NCBI GenBank assembly: GCA_028281265.1
Contig: JANQKE010000211.1
Location: 1-64,000, forward strand
Source: Alphaproteobacteria bacterium
Lineage (GTDB): Bacteria > Pseudomonadota > Alphaproteobacteria > DSM-16000 > Inquilinaceae
DNA: 64,000 nt
Direction: 5' to 3'
Made by a program: the position numbers and the translations under genes. Under the pieces are notes generated by a model. The model had not been told where the DNA came from. It saw only the letters and a program-made list of their open reading frames with translations, and searched no databases. Within the stretch, counting starts at the first letter, position 1, and each line of letters opens with the position of its first letter. Shown here one piece after another: positions 1,039 through 61,985 of this stretch.

Positions 1039-3726
1039 TCACAGCCGGATGTCGAGGCCGACCAACCGGCCCTGCTGCCAGACCGGCAGGCGTTGGACGG
1101 GCTGGAGGGGGGAGGGCGTATCGCGGTCGTCGTCGGGCAAGTCGTTCTGAGCGGAGCCCGATGGGGATGGGCGCTCGTCGCCCTGGTCCTGCCGATCCCC
1201 GCCCTGGCGGAAGCTGAGGTCACCGGAACCCAGGTCGAAGCCTGCGTTCTGAAGGGCTTGCTCCAACAGCCGGGCATCGCGCTGAAGGGTTTGCAAGGTG
1301 TCGGGCCGGTCGGCCGTGATCAGGGCGTGCAGGCGACCGTCCTGGCCGACCTCCATCTGCACCTCCACGCGACCCAGCTCGGCCGGGCGTAGCTGGAGGC
1401 GGATGCGATCGAGCCCGTCCTCGGCGGCCTTGGCGATCTGCACGGCCACCTGGTCGGCCGGCAGCGGAACATGCGGGGCGGCGGGGCGGGGCGGGGTGGC
1501 CTGGGCCGCCAGGGTCGGATGGCGGCTGAGCAGGGCGCTGGCGTCGCCGGCCCCGGCCGAGGCGGGGGACGCCGTCGATCCGGCCTCCGCCCCCGCCGCA
1601 CCGTCAACGGCCGGCGCCGGTTGCCGGGCGGCATCGGACCCCCGTTGCGGAACCGGGACGGCCGCGATCGGTCCGGCCGGCGTCGCGGCGATCCCGGGGC
1701 CGTTCATCCCGCCCGGGCCGGGGGGGGCGACCTCGCCCACCGGCCCGCCGGTGGTCGGCGATCCGGCGTTGGCGTTGGCGTTGACGGGTGCCGCCGGCGC
1801 CCGTTGGCCGGCGGGAAGATCCCCGTTCGGGGCCGTGGGCGGATCGCCGAGCAGGGCTGCCAGCGCCGCCGCCGCCGATTGGCGCGGCTTGCCGTCCGTC
1901 GCCGATGCGGCGTCCGCCTGCGGCAAGACGCCGTCGGTGACGATGGCCGCGTCGGTTCGGTCTCCGGTGGCGGAGGGGTGATCCGCTTCGGCCCCGGCCG
2001 CCGGTCTCGGCGATCCCGGTGCGTGGTCGGTCGGCGGCGGATCACCGGGTCCGGAGATGGCGGAGCCCTTGACGGCCGCGCTTTCCGCCGCGGGAGATGG
2101 GGGACCGGCGGTGCCGTCCGCCTCCGGCCTGTCGGCCATGGGGCCGTTGGCGATGGCCTTCCCGTCGACGGGACCGCCGTCGATGACAGCCGCTTCCGTC
2201 CCGCCATCGGCTCCGTTCCCGGTGGCGGGTGAGGCGACGGTGTCCGGACGGGCCTCCGGCCGGGCGACCGGCGGGCCCGCCGCCCGTTCATCCGTGTTCG
2301 GCACCGAGGTCGGAGCGGAGGCGTTCGGGATGGCGGGCCGATCCGCGCTCGCGGCGGCCGATGCAGGGCCAGACCTGTCGGTCGGCGCGGTGCCGGCGTC
2401 CCCGGGCCCGTTCCGGGCAGCGGCCGGCGATGTCGACGGTCCCGCAGCCGCCGGGTCGGCCGGCCCCGGCCTGTTGTCGGCTGCCGGAGTCGATGACGGA
2501 AGGGGGGCCGACGATGTGGGCGCCGTTGCGTCGACCGGCGGCGCCGTCGGTTCGGTGCGGAAAGCCCCATCGGCCCGTTCGATCGCCGCCGCCTCGACCG
2601 GTATACCCCCGGAAAGGCGCGTCCCGGTGTCGGCCTGTGACGATGCCCCCGGATCGCCATCGCCCGGCACCGTCGCCGGTCGCCAGGGGCCGGCATGCTC
2701 CGGCACGGTCGCCGCTGCTGCCGGGGCCGTCGGCTGGGTCCCGGACACCGCCGCCGACGACTCGGTCGCTTGGTTCGCCGGCACCCCGGCCGCGGTTGCC
2801 GCCGCCATCTGTGCGAGAGCGGGTCCGGAGACGATCGAGGGGGGTGTGCCGATGGTCGACCCCGAGACCCCGTCGGTGTCCCGCAAGGCGCCGCCGTCCG
2901 CGGGCACCGCCGGTTCCGACCGGGCGTGCCCATGGGGCCGGGCGTGCTCATGGGACGGGGCGGCGTCGGGGGCGCCGGCGTCTGTCCGGGTCCGACCGGA
3001 GTGTACCGCCGTGACGTCGGTCGCGACCGTGACCTCACCCCCGTCTGTGCCATCGCGCGTCCCGGTCAGGGTGTCCGTGCCGAGGACAGCCGTCGCCGCG
3101 GTGACGGCGACCGCCTGGGTTGGCACCGTTTCGGTCGGCACCGTTTCTGTGGGGACCGGCCCTGTCAGGATCCGGGGGGCACGGCCGACCGCGGCTGCCG
3201 GGGCATCCGCCGGGGCGGTTTCCATCGCCTGTGGGATCGGTGCGCGTTCGGACGGATCGGTCTGGCTCTCCTCCGCCGGTACGGCCGTCAAGGCCGTGGT
3301 TTCCCCCGGGGCGGCCGTCGACATCGGCCATGTCTCGGACCCGACCGCGTCGTCCGGCTGGCCGGCCGCCGATGGCGGAGTGTCCGATGGCGGAGCGTGA
3401 GGTGCCTCGATCGTCTCGACGATCCTTGCGAGGCCGGTGACATGAACGCCGTCGGTTGCCGCCTCCAGGACCCCCCGGCTCCGTTCGGGCGCGGTGTCGC
3501 CGGTGGCCGTGGCGTCCGGCTTGGCGACCGCGATGGGGTGCTGTTCCGCGGCGGCTGCCGGCCGGTGGTCGGCGGGCGGAGCGGCGCGATCGGCCGGTGC
3601 CGCCGACAGGAACTGCTCAAGGCTCTGTCGGAAGCGTGTCGACCCGGCAGCCGCGGCCGTCTCGGTCGCGGGCGGATGGCTGGCCGGGGGTGCCGTGGGT
3701 ACGACAGGGATCGCCGGAAGGATCAT
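1039..3726 (-). CDS. fliK: Flagellar hook-length control protein FliK
   Basis: FliK measures hook length and switches the export apparatus from hook to filament substrates. The open frame extends upstream to 3921, but the sigma-54 promoter at 3803-3820 lies inside that extension, so I take the ATG at 3726 (895 residues, beginning MILPAIPV). Residues up to about 750 are Ala/Pro/Thr/Gly-rich, low in complexity and probably disordered. Residues about 754-845 form the conserved Flg_hook domain, with LRPAELGRVEVQME and the helix LLEQALQNAGF. The protein is much longer than the enterobacterial FliK of about 400 residues. Only the C-terminal domain supports the assignment, but together with flgD downstream it is convincing. 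Confidence 0.88.
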   Translation of the reverse strand: MILPAIPVVPTAPPASHPPATETAAAAGSTRFRQSLEQFLSAAPADRAAPPADHRPAAAAEQHPIAVAKPDATATGDTAPERSRGVLEAATDGVHVTGLARIVETIEAPHAPPSDTPPSAAGQPDDAVGSETWPMSTAAPGETTALTAVPAEESQTDPSERAPIPQAMETAPADAPAAAVGRAPRILTGPVPTETVPTETVPTQAVAVTAATAVLGTDTLTGTRDGTDGGEVTVATDVTAVHSGRTRTDAGAPDAAPSHEHARPHGHARSEPAVPADGGALRDTDGVSGSTIGTPPSIVSGPALAQMAAATAAGVPANQATESSAAVSGTQPTAPAAAATVPEHAGPWRPATVPGDGDPGASSQADTGTRLSGGIPVEAAAIERADGAFRTEPTAPPVDATAPTSSAPLPSSTPAADNRPGPADPAAAGPSTSPAAARNGPGDAGTAPTDRSGPASAAASADRPAIPNASAPTSVPNTDERAAGPPVARPEARPDTVASPATGNGADGGTEAAVIDGGPVDGKAIANGPMADRPEADGTAGPPSPAAESAAVKGSAISGPGDPPPTDHAPGSPRPAAGAEADHPSATGDRTDAAIVTDGVLPQADAASATDGKPRQSAAAALAALLGDPPTAPNGDLPAGQRAPAAPVNANANAGSPTTGGPVGEVAPPGPGGMNGPGIAATPAGPIAAVPVPQRGSDAARQPAPAVDGAAGAEAGSTASPASAGAGDASALLSRHPTLAAQATPPRPAAPHVPLPADQVAVQIAKAAEDGLDRIRLQLRPAELGRVEVQMEVGQDGRLHALITADRPDTLQTLQRDARLLEQALQNAGFDLGSGDLSFRQGGDRQDQGDERPSPSGSAQNDLPDDDRDTPSPLQPVQRLPVWQQGRLVGLDIRL

Positions 3727-3802
3727 GGTCTTGGGATCGGCTTCGGAGGCTCGGGACCGTATCGCCCCGAGCGTGTCGGGTATGGACGGCCGGCTGAGCG
3801 AA

Positions 3803-3820
3803 CGCAGGTGGCGTGCCAAC
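3803..3820 (-). promoter_or_regulatory. Sigma-54 promoter of fliK-flgD
   Basis: On the minus strand the sequence is TTGGCACGCCACCTGC, which keeps the exact GG-N10-GC spacing (GG at 3817-3816, GC at 3805-3804) and the TGGCAC core. The predicted transcription start is near 3792, about 65 nt before the fliK ATG at 3726. Hook-operon genes in Caulobacter use sigma-54, so the context fits. Confidence 0.75.
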
Positions 3821-3943
3821 AGCCGCACATCCCGTAACGATTTGATTCTCCAAAGAATTGCCCGAACAGGGGCCGGCCGGTCCGGTTCGGCCGGGCAAGC
3901 CTTGCCCGTTGGTGGCGGCAAAAACCGACCGGGTCACCCGCAT

Positions 3944-3958
3944 GGGCAGTTTCTGCCC
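3944..3958. promoter_or_regulatory. Palindrome, candidate activator site between divergent sigma-54 promoters
   Basis: GGGCAG-TTT-CTGCCC is a perfect inverted repeat. It lies roughly 100 bp upstream of the flgE promoter and roughly 140 bp upstream of the fliK promoter, the usual distance range for a bacterial enhancer-binding protein such as a FlbD- or FleQ-type regulator. The regulator is inferred, and no such gene lies in the window. Confidence 0.35.
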
Positions 3959-4045
3959 GGCGATCTGCGTCGGACGGCTCGGCAGAGATCGCCGACCGGC
4001 TCGGACGTCTCCTTTCAAGTGACTGAGAAACAACATGAAAGCAGA

Positions 4046-4063
4046 TTGGCACGGCATCTGCTT
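4046..4063 (+). promoter_or_regulatory. Sigma-54 promoter of flgE
   Basis: TTGGCACGGCATCTGCTT carries GG at 4048-4049 and GC at 4060-4061, separated by exactly 10 nt, with TTGGCACG matching the -24 consensus. The predicted start is near 4073, about 95 nt before the flgE ATG at 4168. It faces away from the fliK promoter at 3803-3820. Confidence 0.78.
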
Positions 4064-4167
4064 CCCCGATCCGCCAAACGTCTCGTCCCCCGCTGCTGCC
4101 GCATGCCGGCGCACGGTCCGCCGGACGGGACCCGGACTATTTTGACGAGGAATGGGAGACCAAATCG

Positions 4168-23191: not shown

Positions 23192-23423
23192 CTAGCGCAT
23201 CCTATCTGCGTCCGAGCGGACGCTGATAGGATGCTCTCACTCTTTGCAGTCGATCAACTTGTCTGCGGTCGGATGCTTCCATCTGAACGCGGGTTGATCG
23301 GGAACAAGACGATGTGAGGGGGAGGCGTCCTTCTGTCGTCTTGCTCTCAAAGGTGAGTGTCAGAGCGGGAGGGCGTCACGCGCGATCGCAAACGCGATCC
23401 CACCTGACGCCATCCCGCTCTAG
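23192..23423 (+). repeat. Mosaic palindromic element B (complete alpha-beta-gamma-delta)
   Basis: This is the fullest plus-strand copy and is bounded by CTAG at 23192-23195 and 23420-23423. Alpha is 23196-23236 (CGCATCCTATCTGCGTCC, loop GAGC). Spacer TCACTCTTTGCAGT leads to beta at 23251-23300. Gamma (about 23301-23346) is degenerate but keeps ACAAGACGA...TCGTCTTGCTCT. Spacer CAAAGGTGAGTGT leads to delta at 23362-23422. It lies in the 5' region of xylA and downstream of the membrane gene. Confidence 0.88.
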
Positions 23424-35124: not shown

Positions 35125-35256
35125 GAGCAAGATTGAGACATGAGGGGGGAATCACCCTCATGTCTCAATCTTGCTCTCCAAGGTGAGAGTCAGAGCGGGA
35201 TGCAGACGCCATGCGCGATCGGGACAGTGATCGCACCTGACGCTATCCCGCTCTAG
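35125..35256 (+). repeat. Mosaic palindromic element J (gamma-delta)
   Basis: Gamma is a near-perfect hairpin: GAGCAAGATTGAGACATGAGG (from 35125, broken here: GAGCAAGATTG + AGACATGAGG) paired with CCTCATGTCTCAATCTTGCT to 35176. Spacer CCAAGGTGAGAGTC leads to delta (35192-35254), AGAGCGGGATGCAGACG...GACGCTATCCCGCTCT. It ends in CTAG at 35253-35256. It is the only copy that begins with gamma, and it sits 34 bp before the accB start. Confidence 0.85.
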
Positions 35257-37621: not shown

Positions 37622-37744
37622 GGCGCATCGGCATGATCGGTGGCGGCGTGGCGATCCGTATGTCGTGGCCAGGGGCAGAATCGTCGCTCTTGCTCAAGTC
37701 GGCGCCCTGATCCATGGTGTGCGTATCGCTCCCACGAGCCTGCG

Positions 37745-37946
37745 CCGGAGAGACCGACCCCCCTTTGCGGTCGGCGCCGACGGAGCAAGCGCCCCTGCCA
37801 AACTCTCAGGCAAAAGGACGGCGCGGGTTCGGAGCGTTTCTGGAGAGCGGGGCGGTGTGCCGGCTGCCCCCACCGACGAAGCACACCGTCCGGGGTCGCG
37901 CGAGCCCGGGCCGGCCTATCTTTCAGGTGACCGGACAGAAGGGGGC
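37745..37946 (+). ncRNA. Tandem glycine riboswitch
   Basis: Two glycine aptamers lie in series before gcvT. Aptamer 1 (about 37747-37819) has GGAGAGA, the conserved CGCCGACGGAGCAAG and CTCTCAGGCAAAAGGAC. After a linker of about 20 nt, aptamer 2 (about 37840-37946) has CTGGAGAG, CACCGACGAAG and TCTTTCAGGTGACCGGACAG. In known cases glycine binding turns on the glycine-cleavage operon, and the position 55 bp before gcvT fits. The expression platform is not resolved here. Confidence 0.95.
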
Positions 37947-53714: not shown

Positions 53715-55190
53715 TCACGCAAGCGCCTCCACCAGTTGCAGCTTGAGCACCTTACCGGCAGAGTTGCGGGGGAGTTCGTCGGTGAAGTGGACACGCCGCG
53801 GCACCTTGTAGGCGGCCAGGCGGTCGCGGCACGCCGCGGCGATGGCCGCCTCGGTGACGCCTTCGTCGGCCACGATCACGGCGCAGATCTCCTCGCCCAT
53901 CTCGGCATCGGGCAAGCCTACCACCGCCACGTCGCGCACCCCGACGATCTGGGCGATGGTCTGTTCGATCTCCACCGGATAGATGTTCGCACCGCCACGG
54001 ATGATCATGTCCTTGGAGCGGCCCCGCAGCGACAGAAAGCCGTCGGCATCGATCGCGCCAAGATCGCCCGGATAGAACCAGCCGTCTCGGAAACTGTCGC
54101 GATCGGCCTCGGGATCCCGGAAGAAGCCCTCGGCCACGCCCGGTCCGCGATAGCGGATGCGGCCCACCTCGTCCGGAGCGAGCGGGCGATGATCCTCGCC
54201 CACCACCTGGACTTCGACACGGAAGGCGGGCCGGCCCACGGTCGTCTCGTGGCCCGGACGCTCCGAGGGCGCCAGCACGGTGATGCCGCCGCCTTCGGTG
54301 GAGGCGTAATATTCGAAGTAGTTCGGCGTCAGCCGCGCGCAAACCGCCTCGCGCTCCCGGGGGAACAGCGGTGCGCCGCTGGAGATCAGCAGCCGCAACC
54401 CCTGAAACGGGACCAGCGCTGTGTCGTCGAGCGTCAGCATCCGCCGTAGCAATGTGGGCACCAGGAAGAGGGCCGTCGGCCGGAACCGTGCCATCGCGGC
54501 GGCCAGTTGTTCGGGTTTGTAGGGAGGCGGGAAGAGCAGGATCGTCCCGCCCAGGCAGAGATAGGACAGCGCAAAGGTTCGACCGCCGCCGAAGTAGAGC
54601 GGAGTCGCCACCACGAAGCGGTCGTACCAGTCGAAGCTGAGGCTGATCGTCTGGTTGATGAACCGGTGTAGCATCTGCCGATGCGTGATGGCGGGGCCCT
54701 TGGGGCGCCCGGTCGTGCCCGAGGACAGCGAGATCAGGAGGGGCAAGTCGCCCTCCTGCACCGCAGCGGGGGCGGTGGCGGGGTCTGCGGCATCGGCCTC
54801 GGCAAGGAAGCGTGCGCTGTCCAGTACGGCGGTGCCCTCCAGCGTCGCCGCGTCCTCGCGGATCACCAGGCGAGGCTTGAAATGGGCGATGAGCTGCGTG
54901 GTCTCGCCCGGCCCCCAGCGACTGTCCATCGGCAGCAGCACCGCGCCCAGACGCGCCAGCGCGAACATCGCCGCCACGTGGTCGGCGCCGTCGCGCATCG
55001 CCAGGCCAACCAGGTCGCCGCGCCCTATCCCACGCGCCGCCAGCGCCACTGCCTGACCGCGCACGCGCCGCGCCAGCTCCGCATAGCTCCAGCGTGTCTC
55101 ACCCTCCACGATCGCCGGATGGGTGCCTCGCGTCGCTGCATGGATGTCGAGGATGGCGGCCAGGTTCTGCAGGTCGTGCGGCGCGGTCAT
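53715..55190 (-). CDS. Acyl-CoA synthetase / AMP-dependent acid-CoA ligase
   Basis: The 491-residue ligase activates a carboxylic acid as the acyl-adenylate and then the CoA thioester. ANL-superfamily motifs are clear: LISLSSGTTGRPKGPAITHR (A3), FEYYASTEGGGITVL (A5), GWFYPGDLGAIDADGFLSLR (A7), GRSKDMIIRGGANIYPVEIE (A8) and PRNSAGKVLKLQL with the catalytic Lys (A10). The acid is not identifiable. ATG 55190 has AAGGAATG upstream; the frame extends to 55271. It is divergent from the TAXI-TRAP operon and probably acts on its cargo. Confidence 0.9.
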   Translation of the reverse strand: MTAPHDLQNLAAILDIHAATRGTHPAIVEGETRWSYAELARRVRGQAVALAARGIGRGDLVGLAMRDGADHVAAMFALARLGAVLLPMDSRWGPGETTQLIAHFKPRLVIREDAATLEGTAVLDSARFLAEADAADPATAPAAVQEGDLPLLISLSSGTTGRPKGPAITHRQMLHRFINQTISLSFDWYDRFVVATPLYFGGGRTFALSYLCLGGTILLFPPPYKPEQLAAAMARFRPTALFLVPTLLRRMLTLDDTALVPFQGLRLLISSGAPLFPREREAVCARLTPNYFEYYASTEGGGITVLAPSERPGHETTVGRPAFRVEVQVVGEDHRPLAPDEVGRIRYRGPGVAEGFFRDPEADRDSFRDGWFYPGDLGAIDADGFLSLRGRSKDMIIRGGANIYPVEIEQTIAQIVGVRDVAVVGLPDAEMGEEICAVIVADEGVTEAAIAAACRDRLAAYKVPRRVHFTDELPRNSAGKVLKLQLVEALA

Positions 55191-55264
55191 CTTGCATTCC
55201 TTGTCGGCACGGCGACGGTCGGGCGCAGCGATACGCGGTGGCCGCGACTCGCATCTATGACTAA

Positions 55265-55293
55265 TTGACATATCATTAAGACATTAGAATAGT
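55265..55293 (+). promoter_or_regulatory. Sigma-70 promoter and direct repeats before the TRAP operon
   Basis: TTGACA (55265-55270), 17 nt, AATAGT (55288-55293). The region is strikingly AT-rich. GACAT occurs twice, at 55267-55271 and 55280-55284, and CTAAT...ATTAG forms an outer inverted pair (55261-55287). These could be operator sites for the GntR-type regulator encoded at 60823-61617, since they lie in the divergent gap between the ligase and the transporter. Confidence 0.5.
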
Positions 55294-55428
55294 GCAATCG
55301 CTGTCGGCGGGGCAATCCTGCACCGCTGAAGCGTCTCGCCCGGCGCGCACCCCTCGGACCGGCGCCTGCGCACTTGCAAAGTGACCGTCCTCGAAAGCGG
55401 CGGCACGACAACAAGGAGGTCTCTGCCC

Positions 55429-56421
55429 ATGTCCGACCGAACGACGCCCCGTCCCTTCGCCCGATTGCTGGGTGTCGCCACGATCGCGGCCACCGTGCTT
55501 TCCGCCGGCGGTGCGGCCGCCCAGGACACCTTCATCAGGATCGGCTCGGGCCTGGCCGGCACCTATCCGATCGTGGGCGCGAAGATAGCGGAGCTGATCA
55601 ACGAGAATATCGAAGGCGTCGAGGCAACCACCGTCGCCGGCGGTACCTCGGCCAACTTCGTGCGTCTGCAGGACGGCGAGATCGAGATGTTGCTGACCTA
55701 CAGCTTCCTGTCAGGGATCGTGCGCGAGGATGGCGGCTCGCTGGGCGTCCAGGTGCCCAAGGTACGCCACCTGATGACGCTCTACGGTGCGTTCCTCCAG
55801 CCGATCGCCTCCGCAGACACGGAGATCACCTCGCTGTCGCAGGTCGCCGATGCGCCCAAGCGGGTGTGGGGCGCCAACCGCACCTCGATCTTCTTCCCGA
55901 TGATCGAGGCGGCGCTCCAGGCTCATGATGTTACCTTCGACGATATCACCGCCGCCGGTGGCGTGATCGAGAGCATCGGCTATGGTGACACTGCCCAGGC
56001 GATGCAGGACGGCCGGCTGGATGTGGGCTTCTTCGCAGGGCCCGCACCCTACAGCCTGATGCTCCAGATCGAGGACAACCCGGGCTTCAACATGCTCGGC
56101 CTCACCGAAGAGGCCGCGGTTCGCTTCAATGAGCTCCTGCCCGGCACGCGCGCGGAGATCATCCCGGCGGGCACCTATGCCGACCAGCAGGAGGATCAGC
56201 TTGTCCCCTATATGGTCAACCAGCTCGTGATCTCCTCGGACGTCTCCGACGCACTGGCCTACGAAATCACCAAGGTGCTGGTGGAGAACTACCAGGAGTT
56301 CCATGGCCTGTTCGCCGGTGCCGAGGAGATCGATCCCGCGATCGCACTGAACGACAATCCGGTCGAGGTGCATCCGGGTGCCGCGCGCTACTATGAGGAA
56401 GTGGGGATCACCGCCCGTTAG
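55429..56421 (+). CDS. TAXI-family TRAP transporter solute-binding protein
   Basis: This is the periplasmic binding protein of a TRAP importer. The product (330 residues from ATG 55429) has a signal peptide (about 1-32, LLGVATIAATVLSAGGAAAQ), the TAXI opening IRIGSGLAGTYPIVGAKIAE, then VAGGTSANFVRLQDGEIEML, and C-terminal elements typical of the family. A perfect AAGGAGGT precedes ATG 55429, so I reject the longer start at 55381. The stop TAG (56419-56421) is the first TAG of mosaic element G. TAXI cargo is often a dicarboxylate or aromatic/acyl acid, but is not known here. Confidence 0.92.
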   Translation: MSDRTTPRPFARLLGVATIAATVLSAGGAAAQDTFIRIGSGLAGTYPIVGAKIAELINENIEGVEATTVAGGTSANFVRLQDGEIEMLLTYSFLSGIVREDGGSLGVQVPKVRHLMTLYGAFLQPIASADTEITSLSQVADAPKRVWGANRTSIFFPMIEAALQAHDVTFDDITAAGGVIESIGYGDTAQAMQDGRLDVGFFAGPAPYSLMLQIEDNPGFNMLGLTEEAAVRFNELLPGTRAEIIPAGTYADQQEDQLVPYMVNQLVISSDVSDALAYEITKVLVENYQEFHGLFAGAEEIDPAIALNDNPVEVHPGAARYYEEVGITAR

Positions 56422-56575
56422 AGAGCATCCTTGCGTCCGAACGGACGCAGATAGGATGCCCTCCCTCTTTGCAGTCGATCACCTTACCGGCGTTCAGATG
56501 AGGCCATCTGAACGCCGGTCGATCGAGAGCGAGAGGACATGAGGGTGCCTCACCCTCATGTCCGACTCTTGCTCT
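56418..56575 (+). repeat. Mosaic palindromic element G (alpha-beta-gamma)
   Basis: It starts at TTAG, whose TAG stops the binding-protein gene. Alpha: GAGCATCCTTGCGTCC, loop GAAC, GGACGCAGATAGGATGC (56422-56460). Spacer CTCCCTCTTTGCAGT leads to beta (56475-56525), where CCGGCGTTCAGAT pairs with ATCTGAACGCCGG, a compensated variant. Gamma (56526-56575) has GGACATGAGGGTG pairing with CACCCTCATGTCC. The ribosome site of the permease gene follows 47 bp later. Confidence 0.9.
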
Positions 56576-56639
56576 CCAAGGCGAAGCCGCGGCCGGCAGC
56601 GGCGGCACACCCCCGCCTCTGACAGGAGGATGTCCCTTG

Positions 56640-58916
56640 GTGGGCATTCGATCGCTTGGATTGACCTCTGAGGCCGATACGTTCTCGGATGCTCGCCGAT
56701 GGGTGGGTCTGGTGCTGTCGGTCTTCTTCGTGCTGATCCACCTTTATGCGGGCTTCTACGGCGCGCCCGACAGCATGCTCTACCGGATGCTGCACGTGGT
56801 GGTGGCGCTGGCGCTGGTCTTCGTGGTCTTCCCCCTCGACGCAGCGGGACGCGCGCGCAGAACTTGGGCACGTGCGCTGGATACGGCGCTGTTCTTCTGT
56901 GCGCTGTGGCTTGCCTGGTATTACCTCTCCACCATCGACGACTGGGAAATGCGGACGGTCCGGCTGTCCACCACGGACATGGTGGCTGCCTGGATGACGC
57001 TGGCGCTGATCTTCGAGGCGGTGCGCCGGGCGGTGGGGCTGATCATCATCGCCGTGGCGCTGTTCTTCTGCGTCCACGCCCTGAACGCCGACCACTTCCC
57101 GGGCGTGTTCTACGGCCCGCCGACGAGCCTCACCGGGCTGCTGCGCGCGCTCCTGGTCGGCGATGGCGGCGTATTCGGCATCCCCGTCCTGGTGATGGCG
57201 CAATATGTCGTTCTGTTCATCTTCTTCGGCCAGCTTCTGAGCGTGGTCGGGGTCGGCACCTTCTTCTTGCGGCTGGCGTTCGCGCTCTTCGGCCATCGTA
57301 CCGGCGGGCCGGCGAAGGCGGCGGTGGTCTCGTCGGCTTTCATGGGCAGTCTTTCGGGCAGCGCCATCGGCAACGTTCTGACCACCGGGTCCTTCACGAT
57401 CCCGCTGATGCGGCGGCTCGGCTATCGCGGCAGCTTCTCGGGCGGGGTGGAAGCGGCCGCCTCCACCGGGGGCATGATCATGCCCCCGGTCATGGGAGCC
57501 ATCGCCTTCATCATGGCGGAGTTCATGGGCCGGCCCTATCTGGAGGTGGCGCTCGCGGCGCTGGTGCCGGCGCTGCTCTACTTCCTGGCGATCTTCGTGG
57601 CCGTCCATCTGGAGGCGCGCCGGTCGAAGCTGCGCACCATTCCGCGGGCCGACCTGCCGCGCGCCTGGCCGGTGCTGAAGCGGCAGGGCTACCTGTTGAT
57701 CCCGATTGCCCTGATCCTCGGCACACTTCTGGCGGGCTATTCGATCATCTTCGTGGCGGTGGTTGCGATCGTCGGGACCTTCCTGATCGGCTTTCTGCGC
57801 CGGCCCACCTGGCCCACTGCGCCGAAGATGCTGCTGGCTGCCGAGACGGCGGCACGCTCCACCGTCGGGCTGTCGGCGACGGCGGCGTGTGCGGGTATCA
57901 TCATCGGCGCGATCTTCGCCACGGGGCTGAGTTTCAAACTGTCGCAGGCGGCGATGGCGGCGGCCGAGGGGCAGCTATGGCTGCTGATCCTCATCTCCGG
58001 CGCGATGGCGCTGATCATGGGCATGGGGATGACCGCCTCGGCAGTCTACATCACCATGGTCGCCACGGTGATCCCGATCCTGCGGGCCGCGGGCGTGCCG
58101 GAGATGGCGGCCCACATGTTCGCCCTCTATTTCGGCGTGGTGTCCAACATCACGCCGCCCATCGCATTGGCGGCCTTCGCCGCGGCCCCCATAGCCCGAG
58201 CCGATCCGATGCGCACAGGCGTCGACGCCGCCAAGCTGGGCATCGCGGCCTTCCTGATACCGGTGATGTTCATCTACCAGCCGGCCCTGGTGCTGGAGGG
58301 GTCCCTGTGGGAGACCGCGCTGGCCGCCGGGTCGGCCTCCATCGGACTGGTGGCGATCTCGGCGGCCTTCGTGGGCTTCCTCTTCGGCCCCATGGGAGCG
58401 GTCTGGCGCGCAGCACTCCTGACGGGCGGGCTGATGATGGTCGTCCCGCAAGGGGTGACCGACCTGGCCGGGCTGGGGCTGGTGTTGGCCGTGGCGGTGC
58501 TGAACTGGCGCGGCATCGGCTCGGGCGTCCCGGCGGTGCGGCCTGAGGACGTCAGGCAGGCGATATCCCCGGGTCTGTTCGGACGGCTGGCGGCAGCACG
58601 GCTCAGCAAGGCCAAGGCCGAGGAGGGGCTGGAGGAACGGCCTAGGGCGGCCGAGCCCGATCTGCGCAACCTGACCAGCGACAAGGTCGCCGACGCCGAG
58701 ACCCGACCGATCCCCGAGGAACTGGCCTGGCCGCTCTGGGTGCTCATGGCGCTCTGCGCCGTGGCGGTCGAGGTGATGGGGCAGAACCTGCTGCATGTCC
58801 GTCAGCCGGGGATCTGGCTGGGTGGTCTGTTTGCGATCAGCCTCGTCTTCACCGTCGGCGTCCGCACCTTGCTGGGCCGTGCCGACGCTCTGACCCCACA
58901 GGAAAAGGTGACCTGA
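56640..58916 (+). CDS. TRAP transporter permease, fused 4TM/12TM type
   Basis: The 758-residue product is the fused membrane component that pairs with TAXI binding proteins. The N-terminal part (about 20-160) is the DctQ-like four-helix unit, and the DctM-like unit follows (about 170-620), with GTFFLRLAFALFGHRTGGPA, SGSAIGNVLTTGSFTIPLM, ASTGGMIMPPVMGAIAFIMA and ALYFGVVSNITPPIALAAFA. Two more helices follow a polar stretch (about 640-680). The start is GTG 56640 (or TTG 56637) after AGGAGGA. Its stop overlaps the dehydrogenase start in ATGA, which shows translational coupling. Confidence 0.93.
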   Translation: MGIRSLGLTSEADTFSDARRWVGLVLSVFFVLIHLYAGFYGAPDSMLYRMLHVVVALALVFVVFPLDAAGRARRTWARALDTALFFCALWLAWYYLSTIDDWEMRTVRLSTTDMVAAWMTLALIFEAVRRAVGLIIIAVALFFCVHALNADHFPGVFYGPPTSLTGLLRALLVGDGGVFGIPVLVMAQYVVLFIFFGQLLSVVGVGTFFLRLAFALFGHRTGGPAKAAVVSSAFMGSLSGSAIGNVLTTGSFTIPLMRRLGYRGSFSGGVEAAASTGGMIMPPVMGAIAFIMAEFMGRPYLEVALAALVPALLYFLAIFVAVHLEARRSKLRTIPRADLPRAWPVLKRQGYLLIPIALILGTLLAGYSIIFVAVVAIVGTFLIGFLRRPTWPTAPKMLLAAETAARSTVGLSATAACAGIIIGAIFATGLSFKLSQAAMAAAEGQLWLLILISGAMALIMGMGMTASAVYITMVATVIPILRAAGVPEMAAHMFALYFGVVSNITPPIALAAFAAAPIARADPMRTGVDAAKLGIAAFLIPVMFIYQPALVLEGSLWETALAAGSASIGLVAISAAFVGFLFGPMGAVWRAALLTGGLMMVVPQGVTDLAGLGLVLAVAVLNWRGIGSGVPAVRPEDVRQAISPGLFGRLAAARLSKAKAEEGLEERPRAAEPDLRNLTSDKVADAETRPIPEELAWPLWVLMALCAVAVEVMGQNLLHVRQPGIWLGGLFAISLVFTVGVRTLLGRADALTPQEKVT

Positions 58917-60058
58917 TGGACTTCTCGCTCACCGAGGAGCAACGGCAGATCGTGAACAGCGTCGAGCGCTTTCTGGAGCGTCATCTGCCCCCCGAGGAGC
59001 AGGCGCGCCGCGACGCTCAGCACGATCCGCCCTACCATCTGCTGAAGGTGATGGCCGACGACGGTCTTCTGGCTCTACCCTTCCCGCAGGCACAGGGCGG
59101 CCTCGGCAGCGGCTGGGACACCGTGGCACTGGTGCAGGAGACGATGGGCCGCAAGGGCTGGATGGCGGCGTCGCTGTTCAACCGGGCGGTAGGCTTCGGC
59201 GGCATGTCGCTGATGACATATGGCACCGAGGCGCAGAAGGCCGCCCTGATGCCACGCCTGATCGGCGAGGGGCTGTTGTTCGCCCTGGGGCTGACCGAAC
59301 CGCAGGCGGGCAGCGATGCGGCGGCCGTCGCGACGCGGGCCCGCCGTGCGGACGACACCTGGATCATCACCGGGCGCAAGTCCTGGATCAGTGACGCCGC
59401 CCAGGCTGATTTCATCGTCACCGTCGTGCGGACCGGCGAGAGCGCGTCCGGCCGGGAGGGCCTGTCGATCCTGCTCGTACCGAAGGACACCCCGGGCGTG
59501 AGCTTCACCCCGCTGCCCAAGGTCGGCAACAATGCGCTGCCTAGCTACGAGATCGCCTTCGACGGTGCGGAGGTCCCCGCCGAGGCGCTGATGGGCGAAG
59601 AAGGCAAGGGCTTCGTGCATCTGATGTCCACCCTGCACTATGCGCGCGCGGGATTGGCGGCCGCGGTCACCGGTGCGGCGCAGCGTGCGGTCGACTTGAC
59701 GCTGGCCCATGTCACCGAACGCGAGCAGTTCGGCCGGCCCATCGGCAAGTTCCAGGTAATCCGGCATCGTCTGGCGGATATGCAGATGCGGGTGGACCAG
59801 TCGCGCCTGATCTCCTGGCACCTCGCCTGGCTGATCCGCGAGGGCCTGCCGTCCCGCCGCCACGCCGCCCAGGCCAAGGTGATCGCCACCGAGGCCCTGC
59901 AATACGTCACCCAGCATGGAATGCAAACGCTGGCCAGCGCCGGCTACATCATCGAAAGCGAGATGCAGCGGCTGTGGCGCGATGCTCGGCTGTACAGCTT
60001 CGGCGAAGGCAGCAACGAGATTCAGCGCAACACCATCGCCCGTGAGCTGGGCCTGTGA
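58916..60058 (+). CDS. Acyl-CoA dehydrogenase family protein
   Basis: This FAD enzyme oxidises an acyl-CoA to the 2,3-enoyl-CoA. The 380-residue product has the N-terminal helical domain starting FSLTEEQRQIVNSVERFLER, the flavin signature FALGLTEPQAGSDAAAVATR, TWIITGRKSWISDAAQADF, and C-terminal AGYIIESEMQRLWRDARLYS and EGSNEIQRNTIAREL. It overlaps the permease stop by one base and follows naturally from the ligase product. Electron acceptor and chain specificity are not evident. Confidence 0.94.
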   Translation: MDFSLTEEQRQIVNSVERFLERHLPPEEQARRDAQHDPPYHLLKVMADDGLLALPFPQAQGGLGSGWDTVALVQETMGRKGWMAASLFNRAVGFGGMSLMTYGTEAQKAALMPRLIGEGLLFALGLTEPQAGSDAAAVATRARRADDTWIITGRKSWISDAAQADFIVTVVRTGESASGREGLSILLVPKDTPGVSFTPLPKVGNNALPSYEIAFDGAEVPAEALMGEEGKGFVHLMSTLHYARAGLAAAVTGAAQRAVDLTLAHVTEREQFGRPIGKFQVIRHRLADMQMRVDQSRLISWHLAWLIREGLPSRRHAAQAKVIATEALQYVTQHGMQTLASAGYIIESEMQRLWRDARLYSFGEGSNEIQRNTIARELGL

Positions 60059-60068
60059 GCCCGCACCC

Positions 60069-60832
60069 ATGACCGGGGAGTTGGCCGAGATCGACCGGGG
60101 GTTCGTGCGCATCGCGGAAGGCCAGGTGCATTACCGGCAGGCCGGTCTCGGCACGTGATCGCCCCCGACACGCTGGGCAATGGCGATTCCTGCCCGCCCG
60201 CGCCGGGGGACGCACCGGATATCCGCTACTTCGCCGATGCCCATCGCCGCACGCTGGACGCAATGGGGGTGAGTGCTTTCGACGCCTATGGGAGCCACAC
60301 GGGCGGCAACATCGCCGTCGAGTTGGCGATCGGAAGGCCCGGTGCGGTGCGAGCGCTGATCCTCGACGGCATGGCCGTCTACGCCACGGACGAGCAGGCC
60401 GACATGCTGGCCCATTACGCGCCTGAGGTGGCGGTGGACCAGACCGGCAGCCAGCTCAACTGGGCCTGGCATTTTGTGCGCGACAACGCCTTGTTCTGGC
60501 CCTGGTTCCGGCGCGACGCGGCGCATCTGCGCAAGGTGGGTCTACCCGCCCCGGAGGTTCTTCACGAGAAGGTGGTCGAGGTGCTCAAGGCGGTGCGTAG
60601 CTACCATCACTCCTATCGGGCGGCCTTCGCCTACGACAAGCGCGCGCGCCTGCCGCTGGTCAGCGTGCGCACGCTGGTGGCCTGCGCCGAGGACGACATG
60701 CTGCTGGAGTATCTCGACGCGGTCATGACGTTGATGCCGGATGCACAGCGTCTTGTGACCCCGGGCAATGCCACACCGGATCGTGCCGAGGCGACGGCGG
60801 CCGCCCTCTCGGCATGGCTCGATCAGGCTTGA
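60069..60832 (+). pseudogene. Alpha/beta hydrolase with an internal deletion and frameshift
   Basis: A start (MTGELAEIDRGFVRIAEG, then QVHYRQAGLGT, 60069-60158) stops at TGA, and another frame takes over at about 60155 with IAPDTLGNGDS and continues for 225 codons to LSAWLDQA. In relatives these two parts are joined by about 30 residues carrying the first core strand and oxyanion-hole His-Gly turn. That stretch is missing, so a deletion of roughly 90 bp with loss of frame is likely. The elbow region reads YGSHTGGNIA. It overlaps the GntR gene end by 10 bp. It could be a shortened new protein, but loss of function is more likely. Confidence 0.7.
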
Positions 60833-61617
60833 CCGGTTTCCAGGCGCATCTTCCCGCTACCGGCCTTGCGCGACATGGACATCTGGAACTCGTAGAGATC
60901 GGGGCGGTAAAGCGCGCGGATATGCTCGACAGGGCGATCCGACTGGTCGCGGATGACGCGCACCACGACCAGAAGCGGCGCACCGATCTCGACCTCGAGT
61001 TGCGTGGCAGCGGCGGTATCGGCCATGCAGGCGGTGATGCTCTGATCGGCAGCGGTGACCTCGACGCCCGATTTCGCGAGCAGCGACAGAAGCGGCGTCG
61101 TCTCCAGGTCGGACGGGCCGAAGCGCCGCCCCACTTCGGCCAGCACATGCGTGGTCAGGTAGGAGACCGGGCGGCCGTCATGGCGGCGCACCCGAACCGC
61201 CTTCTGCACCTCCGCACCAGGTGTGATCTCGAGTGCCGCGGCGATCTCGGCGGATGCATGGACATAGCCGAATTCCAGCAGTTGCACGCTGGTGTTGCGC
61301 CCCATCACCTGCAGGCTTTCCATCAGTCCGCTGATATCGGTCCGCAAGGGCCGCGAGACACGGGGTGCGATCGGGAAGGTACCGCGCCCGCGGTGGCGCG
61401 CGATCATCCCTTTGCCGGTCAGTCGCTCCAGCGCCCGCCGGATGGTTATCCGCGACACGCCGAACTCGGCGGCAAGGACGTGTTCGGAGGGCATCGGCGC
61501 GTCGGCCGGGAACGCACCCTCCTCGAGCCGCTCGCGCAGCACCATGTAGATCTTGTGGTAGAGCGGTAGGGGAGACAACCCGTCGGACCGGGGCGCATCG
61601 CCTTGCTGCGTGCTCAT
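60823..61617 (-). CDS. GntR-family regulator, HutC/UTRA type
   Basis: The 264-residue repressor-like protein has an N-terminal winged helix (about 18-85): LPLYHKIYMVLRERLEEGAF, PSEHVLAAEFGVSRITIRRA, LERLTGKGMIARHRGRGTF. A UTRA effector domain follows (about 100-250), with RVRRHDGRPVSYLTTHVLAE and LLVVVRVIRDQSDRPVEHIR. The start ATG 61617 has GAGGAAAC upstream. It is convergent with the TRAP/dehydrogenase operon and probably regulates it in response to the imported acid or its CoA ester. Confidence 0.9.
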   Translation of the reverse strand: MSTQQGDAPRSDGLSPLPLYHKIYMVLRERLEEGAFPADAPMPSEHVLAAEFGVSRITIRRALERLTGKGMIARHRGRGTFPIAPRVSRPLRTDISGLMESLQVMGRNTSVQLLEFGYVHASAEIAAALEITPGAEVQKAVRVRRHDGRPVSYLTTHVLAEVGRRFGPSDLETTPLLSLLAKSGVEVTAADQSITACMADTAAATQLEVEIGAPLLVVVRVIRDQSDRPVEHIRALYRPDLYEFQMSMSRKAGSGKMRLETGQA

Positions 61618-61767: not shown

Positions 61768-61985
61768 GAGCGGGATGGCGTTCGGTGCGATCGCGCATGA
61801 CGTCTCAATCTCGCTCCGACATTCATCTGTGAGAGCAACAGGACAGGAGGGTGACCGACCCTCCTGTCCTGTTGCTCCCGATCAACCTTACGGTCAGATG
61901 GACTGATCTGACCGCAGGTAAGGTGATCGACTTCAAAGAGTGAAGGCATCCTATCCGCGTCCGTTCGGACGCGGGGACACTCTAG
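61768..61985 (-). repeat. Mosaic palindromic element H (complete alpha-beta-gamma-delta, minus orientation)
   Basis: From left to right the modules run delta, gamma, beta, alpha, so the element points to the minus strand. Delta (61768-61817) is imperfect. Gamma (61833-61877) is a perfect 19-bp stem, GAGCAACAGGACAGGAGGG with its complement. Beta (61880-61929) pairs CGGTCAGAT with ATCTGACCG, again compensated. Alpha (61945-61985) is weakened and ends in CTAG (61982-61985). Five bases separate it from element I. Confidence 0.88.

Follow-up and report, generated by a model that had tools for sequence, protein, structure and literature searches.

Rhizobium-specific intergenic mosaic elements (RIME) have a length of about 100 bp, and RUP and Correia are examples of miniature transposons (MITEs) of the IS630/Tc1-mariner type. 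A preference of IS630 for CTAG was reportedly described by Tenzen and Ohtsubo in 1991. According to PMC2170065, IS630 inserts into TA, with CTAG as a favoured target. The hallmark of a REP sequence, as given in PMC3733652, is a short stem with an unpaired GTAG or CGTC tag. In E. coli, the structure between malE and malF is described in PMC5927463 as shielding the malE message from 3'-5' exonucleases, and for ABC importers of cellulolytic clostridia PMC9045158 describes U-poor internal terminators downstream of the binding-protein genes.

We analyzed a stretch of 64,000 nucleotides, hereafter the window (positions 1-64000 of contig C59 in G000, a 232-contig draft assembly totalling 4,327,585 bases, whose gene matches point to an alphaproteobacterium). 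A repeat element lies here between the genes for the binding protein and the permease of a TAXI-type TRAP transporter. The original prediction had likened it to the REP elements of malE-malF, with three stacked hairpins that could protect the upstream message and help give more binding protein than permease. The features of the locus are as follows.

55265-55293, + strand: sigma-70-like promoter match, 5' of the binding-protein gene (1 found vs 0.3 expected)
55429-56421, + strand: TAXI-type TRAP binding-protein gene (NMT1_3; ORF list; Pfam PF16868, E 1.6e-37)
56419-56420, + strand: target TA, forming the TAG stop with the first G of the element, 56421 (sequence; end alignment; stop-codon pattern elsewhere)
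56421-56524, + strand: MITE-1, the A-C unit, GAGAGCATCC...GGTCGATC (repeat families; genome-wide copies; alignment of 50 copies)
56425-56459, + strand: predicted hairpin A (fold; covariation across 50 copies)
56486-56519, + strand: predicted hairpin C, stem of 14-15 bp (fold; 8 of 14 scored stem pairs changed on both sides across copies)
56525-56576, + strand: predicted hairpin D, the left half of MITE-2, the D-E unit (module scan; fold)
56577-56636, + strand: element-free remainder of the gap (56577-56640 folds at chance level, z -0.38)
56624-56629, + strand: Shine-Dalgarno sequence AGGAGG (sequence)
56637-58916, + strand: TRAP permease gene (DctM, fused large form; Pfam PF06808, E 4.7e-81)

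The binding-protein gene stops at TAG (56419-56421) and the permease gene starts at TTG 56637 or GTG 56640. The insertion did not truncate the binding protein, whose C-terminus lies at the same place as the ends of its orthologues. The neighbourhood of the transporter (53715-61545) also holds a divergent AMP-binding ligase, an acyl-CoA dehydrogenase, a hydrolase-like ORF and a GntR/UTRA regulator. These gene neighbours suggest that the cluster may import a carboxylic acid and degrade it through CoA-dependent steps.

The repeat element and its copies

The repeat between the two genes proved real and well beyond chance, judged by its copies in the genome and by the RNA fold of 56419-56640 (-126.3 kcal/mol, z = -9.54, 200 shuffles), in which the three stacked hairpins expected there were seen as A, C and D. 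It had been placed exactly between the last sense codon and the ribosome site. It does lie between both genes, but it starts within the stop codon, and its end, near 56576, leaves about 48 nt to AGGAGG and about 60 nt to TTG 56637. It is also a mosaic, as had been proposed, but of two joined units rather than one: A-C is followed by half of D-E, and the module scan found the E half absent 3' of hairpin D at this junction.

A DNA search found the element repeated genome-wide (447 first-look candidates, 40 scored, 54 among the matches listed), and the self-complementary core of A, GCGTCCNNNNGGACGC, occurred 244 times in 4.33 Mb, vs 2 for a reversed-pattern control. Profiles defined four modules, A, C, D and E, and in a sample of 81 stretches (1,072,911 bases, window included) we counted 105 A, 123 C, 22 D and 24 E in 127 clusters. 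The A-C unit is about 98-106 bp long, starting with TA-GAGCATCC and ending with GGTTGATC-TA; the D-E unit ends with CCCGCTC-TA, and unit lengths overall are about 98-135 bp. Adjoining units often have one CTAG in common. Further copies are present in the window in both orientations, including D-E copies at 35129-35254 and 23303-23421. A composite A-C-D as a genome-wide unit was considered and rejected, since all three cases in the 1.07-Mb sample are confined to the window (23196-23421, 56421-56576 and 61768-61984); these composites have GG or GA at the expected joining TA.

We searched 16 further genomes from the family; the repeat was present in two of them (G003 and G006), and another genome of the class gave a single short weak match. 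No copy was matched on plasmids. No Rfam family reached its gathering score across the element. Away from it, the Rfam matches in the window were a tRNA and a glycine riboswitch (RF00504, 71.4 bits, 37735-37831, + strand). Some 115 nt upstream of the riboswitch lies an A-C copy directly adjoining the stop of the preceding gene.

Miniature transposons and the stop codon

The ends of the units place the element with IS630. We aligned 50 of 61 candidate A-C pairs (alignment A1; of the 11 omitted, five ran off the end of the locus and the rest were left out by choice), and found the flanking TA of an IS630-type MITE: the left end was TAG in 23 of 50 copies and the right end TA in 32 of 50. Copies without TAG or TA at their ends are decayed or different. 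The terminal sequence is likewise common to autonomous IS630 copies. In a search for paired ends in ten loci of relatives and one plasmid, where several of the remaining loci broke off within a copy as the contig ended, intact IS630 copies with TA-GAGC termini were found in G005, G002, G023 and a Neorhizobium plasmid. These four, at L310, L311, L313 and L180, are about 1.05 kb long, with TA-GAGC at both ends. L180 is annotated as IS630, from Neorhizobium petrolearium, and its terminus GAGCGGGATGA equals that of module E, whose end GAGCGGGATG equals the ends of the L180 and L166 copies. The end of module A has only GAGCAT in common with the G013 copies, and the A-C unit, which is the one beside the stop codon, is therefore matched to IS630 less closely than D-E.

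The draft assembly itself contains no intact IS630 copy; a fragment of a DDE_3 (IS630-type) transposase, above the cut-off, lies at the edge of contig C170. The end of this fragment, ..AACGCTC-TAG, abuts an E-D copy, and the IS630 copies of relatives have a similar style of end. We concluded from the TA at the ends, the GAGC termini common with intact IS630 copies and the high copy number that the junction feature is a composite, in which one whole IS630-type miniature transposon, A-C, is joined to the D half of another, D-E. A third repeat of 272 bp (L178, 1296-1567) has perfect ends, CTAGAGCGTTTTCAGG, similar in style to those of the A-C and D-E units. These ends gave 72 and 89 matches on the two strands with at most one mismatch, and many draft contigs terminate near this repeat.

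This identity bears on the REP reading of the original prediction. A REP/BIME element of the malE-malF kind, moved by a RAYT, would be palindromic, intergenic, high-copy and mosaic and would avoid genes, as this element does. Its units, however, are about 98-135 bp long with IS630-type ends, not tagged repeats of 20-40 bp. A search for RAYT (PF01797), positive in 5 of 14 control genomes, gave 0 matches in this one. Because of the IS630-type ends and the lack of a RAYT match in the draft genome, membership in REP/BIME was rejected, and we regard this origin as very improbable.

Stop codons near element ends had a distinct pattern in the 1.07-Mb sample, for which genes were called by a small purpose-built caller trained on the own genome. 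Of the 39 stops at most 6 nt from an element end, 32 were TAG and 29 consisted exactly of TA plus the G of the element, the junction locus among them. With a wider mask, TAG made up 50 of 73 stops at elements vs 172 of 793 elsewhere. Of the CTAG sites outside elements, 118 were intergenic, 31 fell at stops and 49 were coding; in the own-genome sample, CTAG is thus scarce in coding relative to intergenic DNA. The insertion target read from these sequences is (C/T)TAG, often a stop codon. This choice of target gives positions such as the one studied, so the exact placement needs no functional explanation.

Element copies favoured gene 3' ends, and none was within a gene. They were distributed over convergent gaps (24 copies in 20.0 kb net intergenic DNA), tandem gaps (50 in 77.0 kb) and divergent gaps (14 in 43.6 kb). 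This spread would fit a miniature transposon that sits in a permissive (C/T)TAG stop with no effect visible to selection, and whose place at the stop is accounted for by the target. We hold such a neutral insertion to be possible but rather less than probable.

We also examined how well the hairpins are kept. When 27 pairs were followed through 50 copies, 91.3% of cells were paired; both sides had changed at 12 pairs, vs 5.6 in shuffles, with 0 of 500 shuffles as high, and structures slid along the alignment scored far worse than the drawn one, which is favoured by having been drawn on the window copy. Two features of the window copy speak against neutrality. It is diverged yet keeps 27 of 27 scored pairs, a count biased in its favour because the scored structure was drawn on this copy. 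Its fold energy (-60.4 vs a median of -48.9) is the second lowest of 22 copies more than 12% from the consensus, a rank that is not significant alone. Better-kept hairpins in transcribed contexts were not seen: preservation had no visible dependence on tandem, convergent or divergent context, with few divergent copies in the comparison.

Copies also occur after other binding-protein genes. On contig C72, an A-C unit lies between an SBP_bac_1 gene (L142, 4274-5257) and a BPD_transp_1 permease gene (2330-4066), with its first G within the stop codon as at the TAXI junction, and elements lie 3' of further binding-protein genes at L274, L275, L289 and L272. A special attraction to such genes was considered and set aside, as the enrichment was not significant (7/40 vs 97/844, p = 0.16, computed with 7/39), which again agrees with a neutral insertion.

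Hairpins at binding-protein/permease junctions

We examined 72 distinct TAXI binding-protein/permease junctions from relatives and the own genome. Duplicates were removed by comparing the final 40 nt of the binding-protein gene, which left paralogues and related genomes in the set, and 59 junctions had an estimated gap of at least 55 nt; the rule for placing permease starts was simple and over-estimates some gaps (e.g. L185). For each junction, the best 44-nt window in the first 100 nt 3' of the stop was scored with 30 shuffles per z. A z below -2 was reached by 40 of 58 other TAXI junctions, vs 21 of 144 element-free tandem gaps of the own genome (Fisher p about 1e-13) and 16 of 82 tandem gaps in the relatives' own loci (p about 4e-9). 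Below -3, the counts were 32/58 for the TAXI junctions and 10/82 for the relatives' tandem gaps. Judged by eye, the TAXI hairpins had no sequence relation to each other. Among the four closest orthologues, L059, L061 and L062 had a hairpin and L060 had none (z +0.1); of the own-genome TAXI pairs in the test, L207 had one and L183 and L185 did not.

For ABC transporters of the own genome, 32 binding-protein loci were examined (L295 was dropped as the same gene as L292) and 27 scored; L272, L288, L292, L293 and L302 were left unscored because of contig ends or the lack of a gap. Element-free genes reached z below -2 in 15 of 23 cases. At L277, L278, L279, L284, L299 and others, the binding-protein gene is mostly followed by a strong GC-rich hairpin. 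Predicted junction hairpins are, by these folds, a general and sequence-independent feature of TAXI operons and of the ABC binding-protein genes of this genome.

At the studied junction, the transposon supplies the sole predicted hairpin, the element-free rest folding at chance level, and the predicted fold provides what malE-malF has, a stable hairpin between binding-protein and permease genes. The idea that a hairpin matters at this place gains support from the folding comparison, because 40 of 58 other TAXI junctions hold one, above both control sets. That a TAXI junction normally holds a hairpin also argues against an insertion without effect. The malE-malF-like interpretation in the original prediction is partly supported. 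A hairpin is a general feature of TAXI junctions, but the element is not REP, and its copies are also found in convergent and divergent gaps and are not significantly enriched 3' of binding-protein genes.

A hairpin at this place could also end part of the transcripts ahead of the permease gene, as in the clostridial ABC importers, for which PMC9045158 describes low-U terminators in the corresponding position. Of the 40 significant TAXI hairpins, 13 had 4 or more T among the 9 nt that follow, which would agree with such internal attenuation. At the studied junction, however, no T run follows hairpin A, C or D, and a scan of 55190-56760 found 0 terminator-like sites in the gap, that is, no GC-rich stem with a T run. 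We consider attenuation here unlikely. Because of the missing T tract, protection would be likelier than termination. The same scan found 0 promoter-like sites in the gap, and its sole sigma-70-like match, at 55265-55293, lies 5' of the binding-protein gene; this is a weak indication against separate promoters for the two genes, which the original prediction had named as evidence against it.

On balance, we lean towards a chance insertion that fills a site calling for a hairpin and probably protects the upstream message. The A-C unit would have landed on a TA in or at the binding-protein stop codon, and the target TA with the first G of the element would have rebuilt the stop as TAG. Read-through transcription would then place three stacked hairpins directly 3' of this stop, where 3'-to-5' exonucleases entering from cleaved permease message may be halted. 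The binding-protein message would last longer, giving more binding protein than permease. The insertion at a favoured target may have happened by chance, and its outcome may have been tolerated or kept since the place calls for a hairpin. We infer that the two genes form a single-transcript operon, that the role of the hairpins is protective and that the copy was kept by selection.

We suggest more tentatively, giving it not quite an even chance, that TAXI junctions are selected for any strong hairpin and that in this lineage CTAG-targeting IS630 MITEs, whose first base G rebuilds the stop they hit, serve as replacement parts, which would provide a stop and 3' protection at once and reset the ratio of binding protein to permease. 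We found no earlier report of hairpins at TRAP/TAXI junctions or of IS630 miniature elements at stop codons in the titles and abstract openings searched, with subscription journals mostly outside. The chance-insertion account separates the cause of the repeat's position at the stop, the target choice of a transposase, from the reason for its retention, a junction that may call for a hairpin. It would extend a rule known for ABC importers to TAXI-type TRAP operons, with counts set against two controls. Nature also supplies replicate experiments: some junctions hold a native hairpin, others a transposon hairpin and others none.

Comparison with described systems

The locus resembles the malE-malF REP/BIME of E. 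coli in having strong hairpins between binding-protein and permease genes, here in a predicted single operon. It differs in mobility, which is unrelated (no RAYT), and in architecture: the stems are longer than those of REP, there is no GTAG or CGTC tag, and the ends are TA-GAGC. Like the internal terminators of ABC importers, as PMC9045158 describes them, the hairpin stands directly 3' of the binding-protein gene, but it has no T tract, it was supplied by a transposon, and the transporter is a TAXI-type TRAP, not ABC. With RIME, as far as the descriptions in PMC2245857 and PMC2573895 go, the element shares the character of an alphaproteobacterial intergenic palindrome mosaic, a likeness by description only. 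The IS630/Tc1-mariner MITEs have the same TA at both ends, short non-coding length, high copy number and preference for CTAG, and the same terminal bases in common with autonomous IS630 copies. Unlike them, the element has short and imperfect ends and two long internal hairpins per unit, and its units are joined end to end into mosaics.
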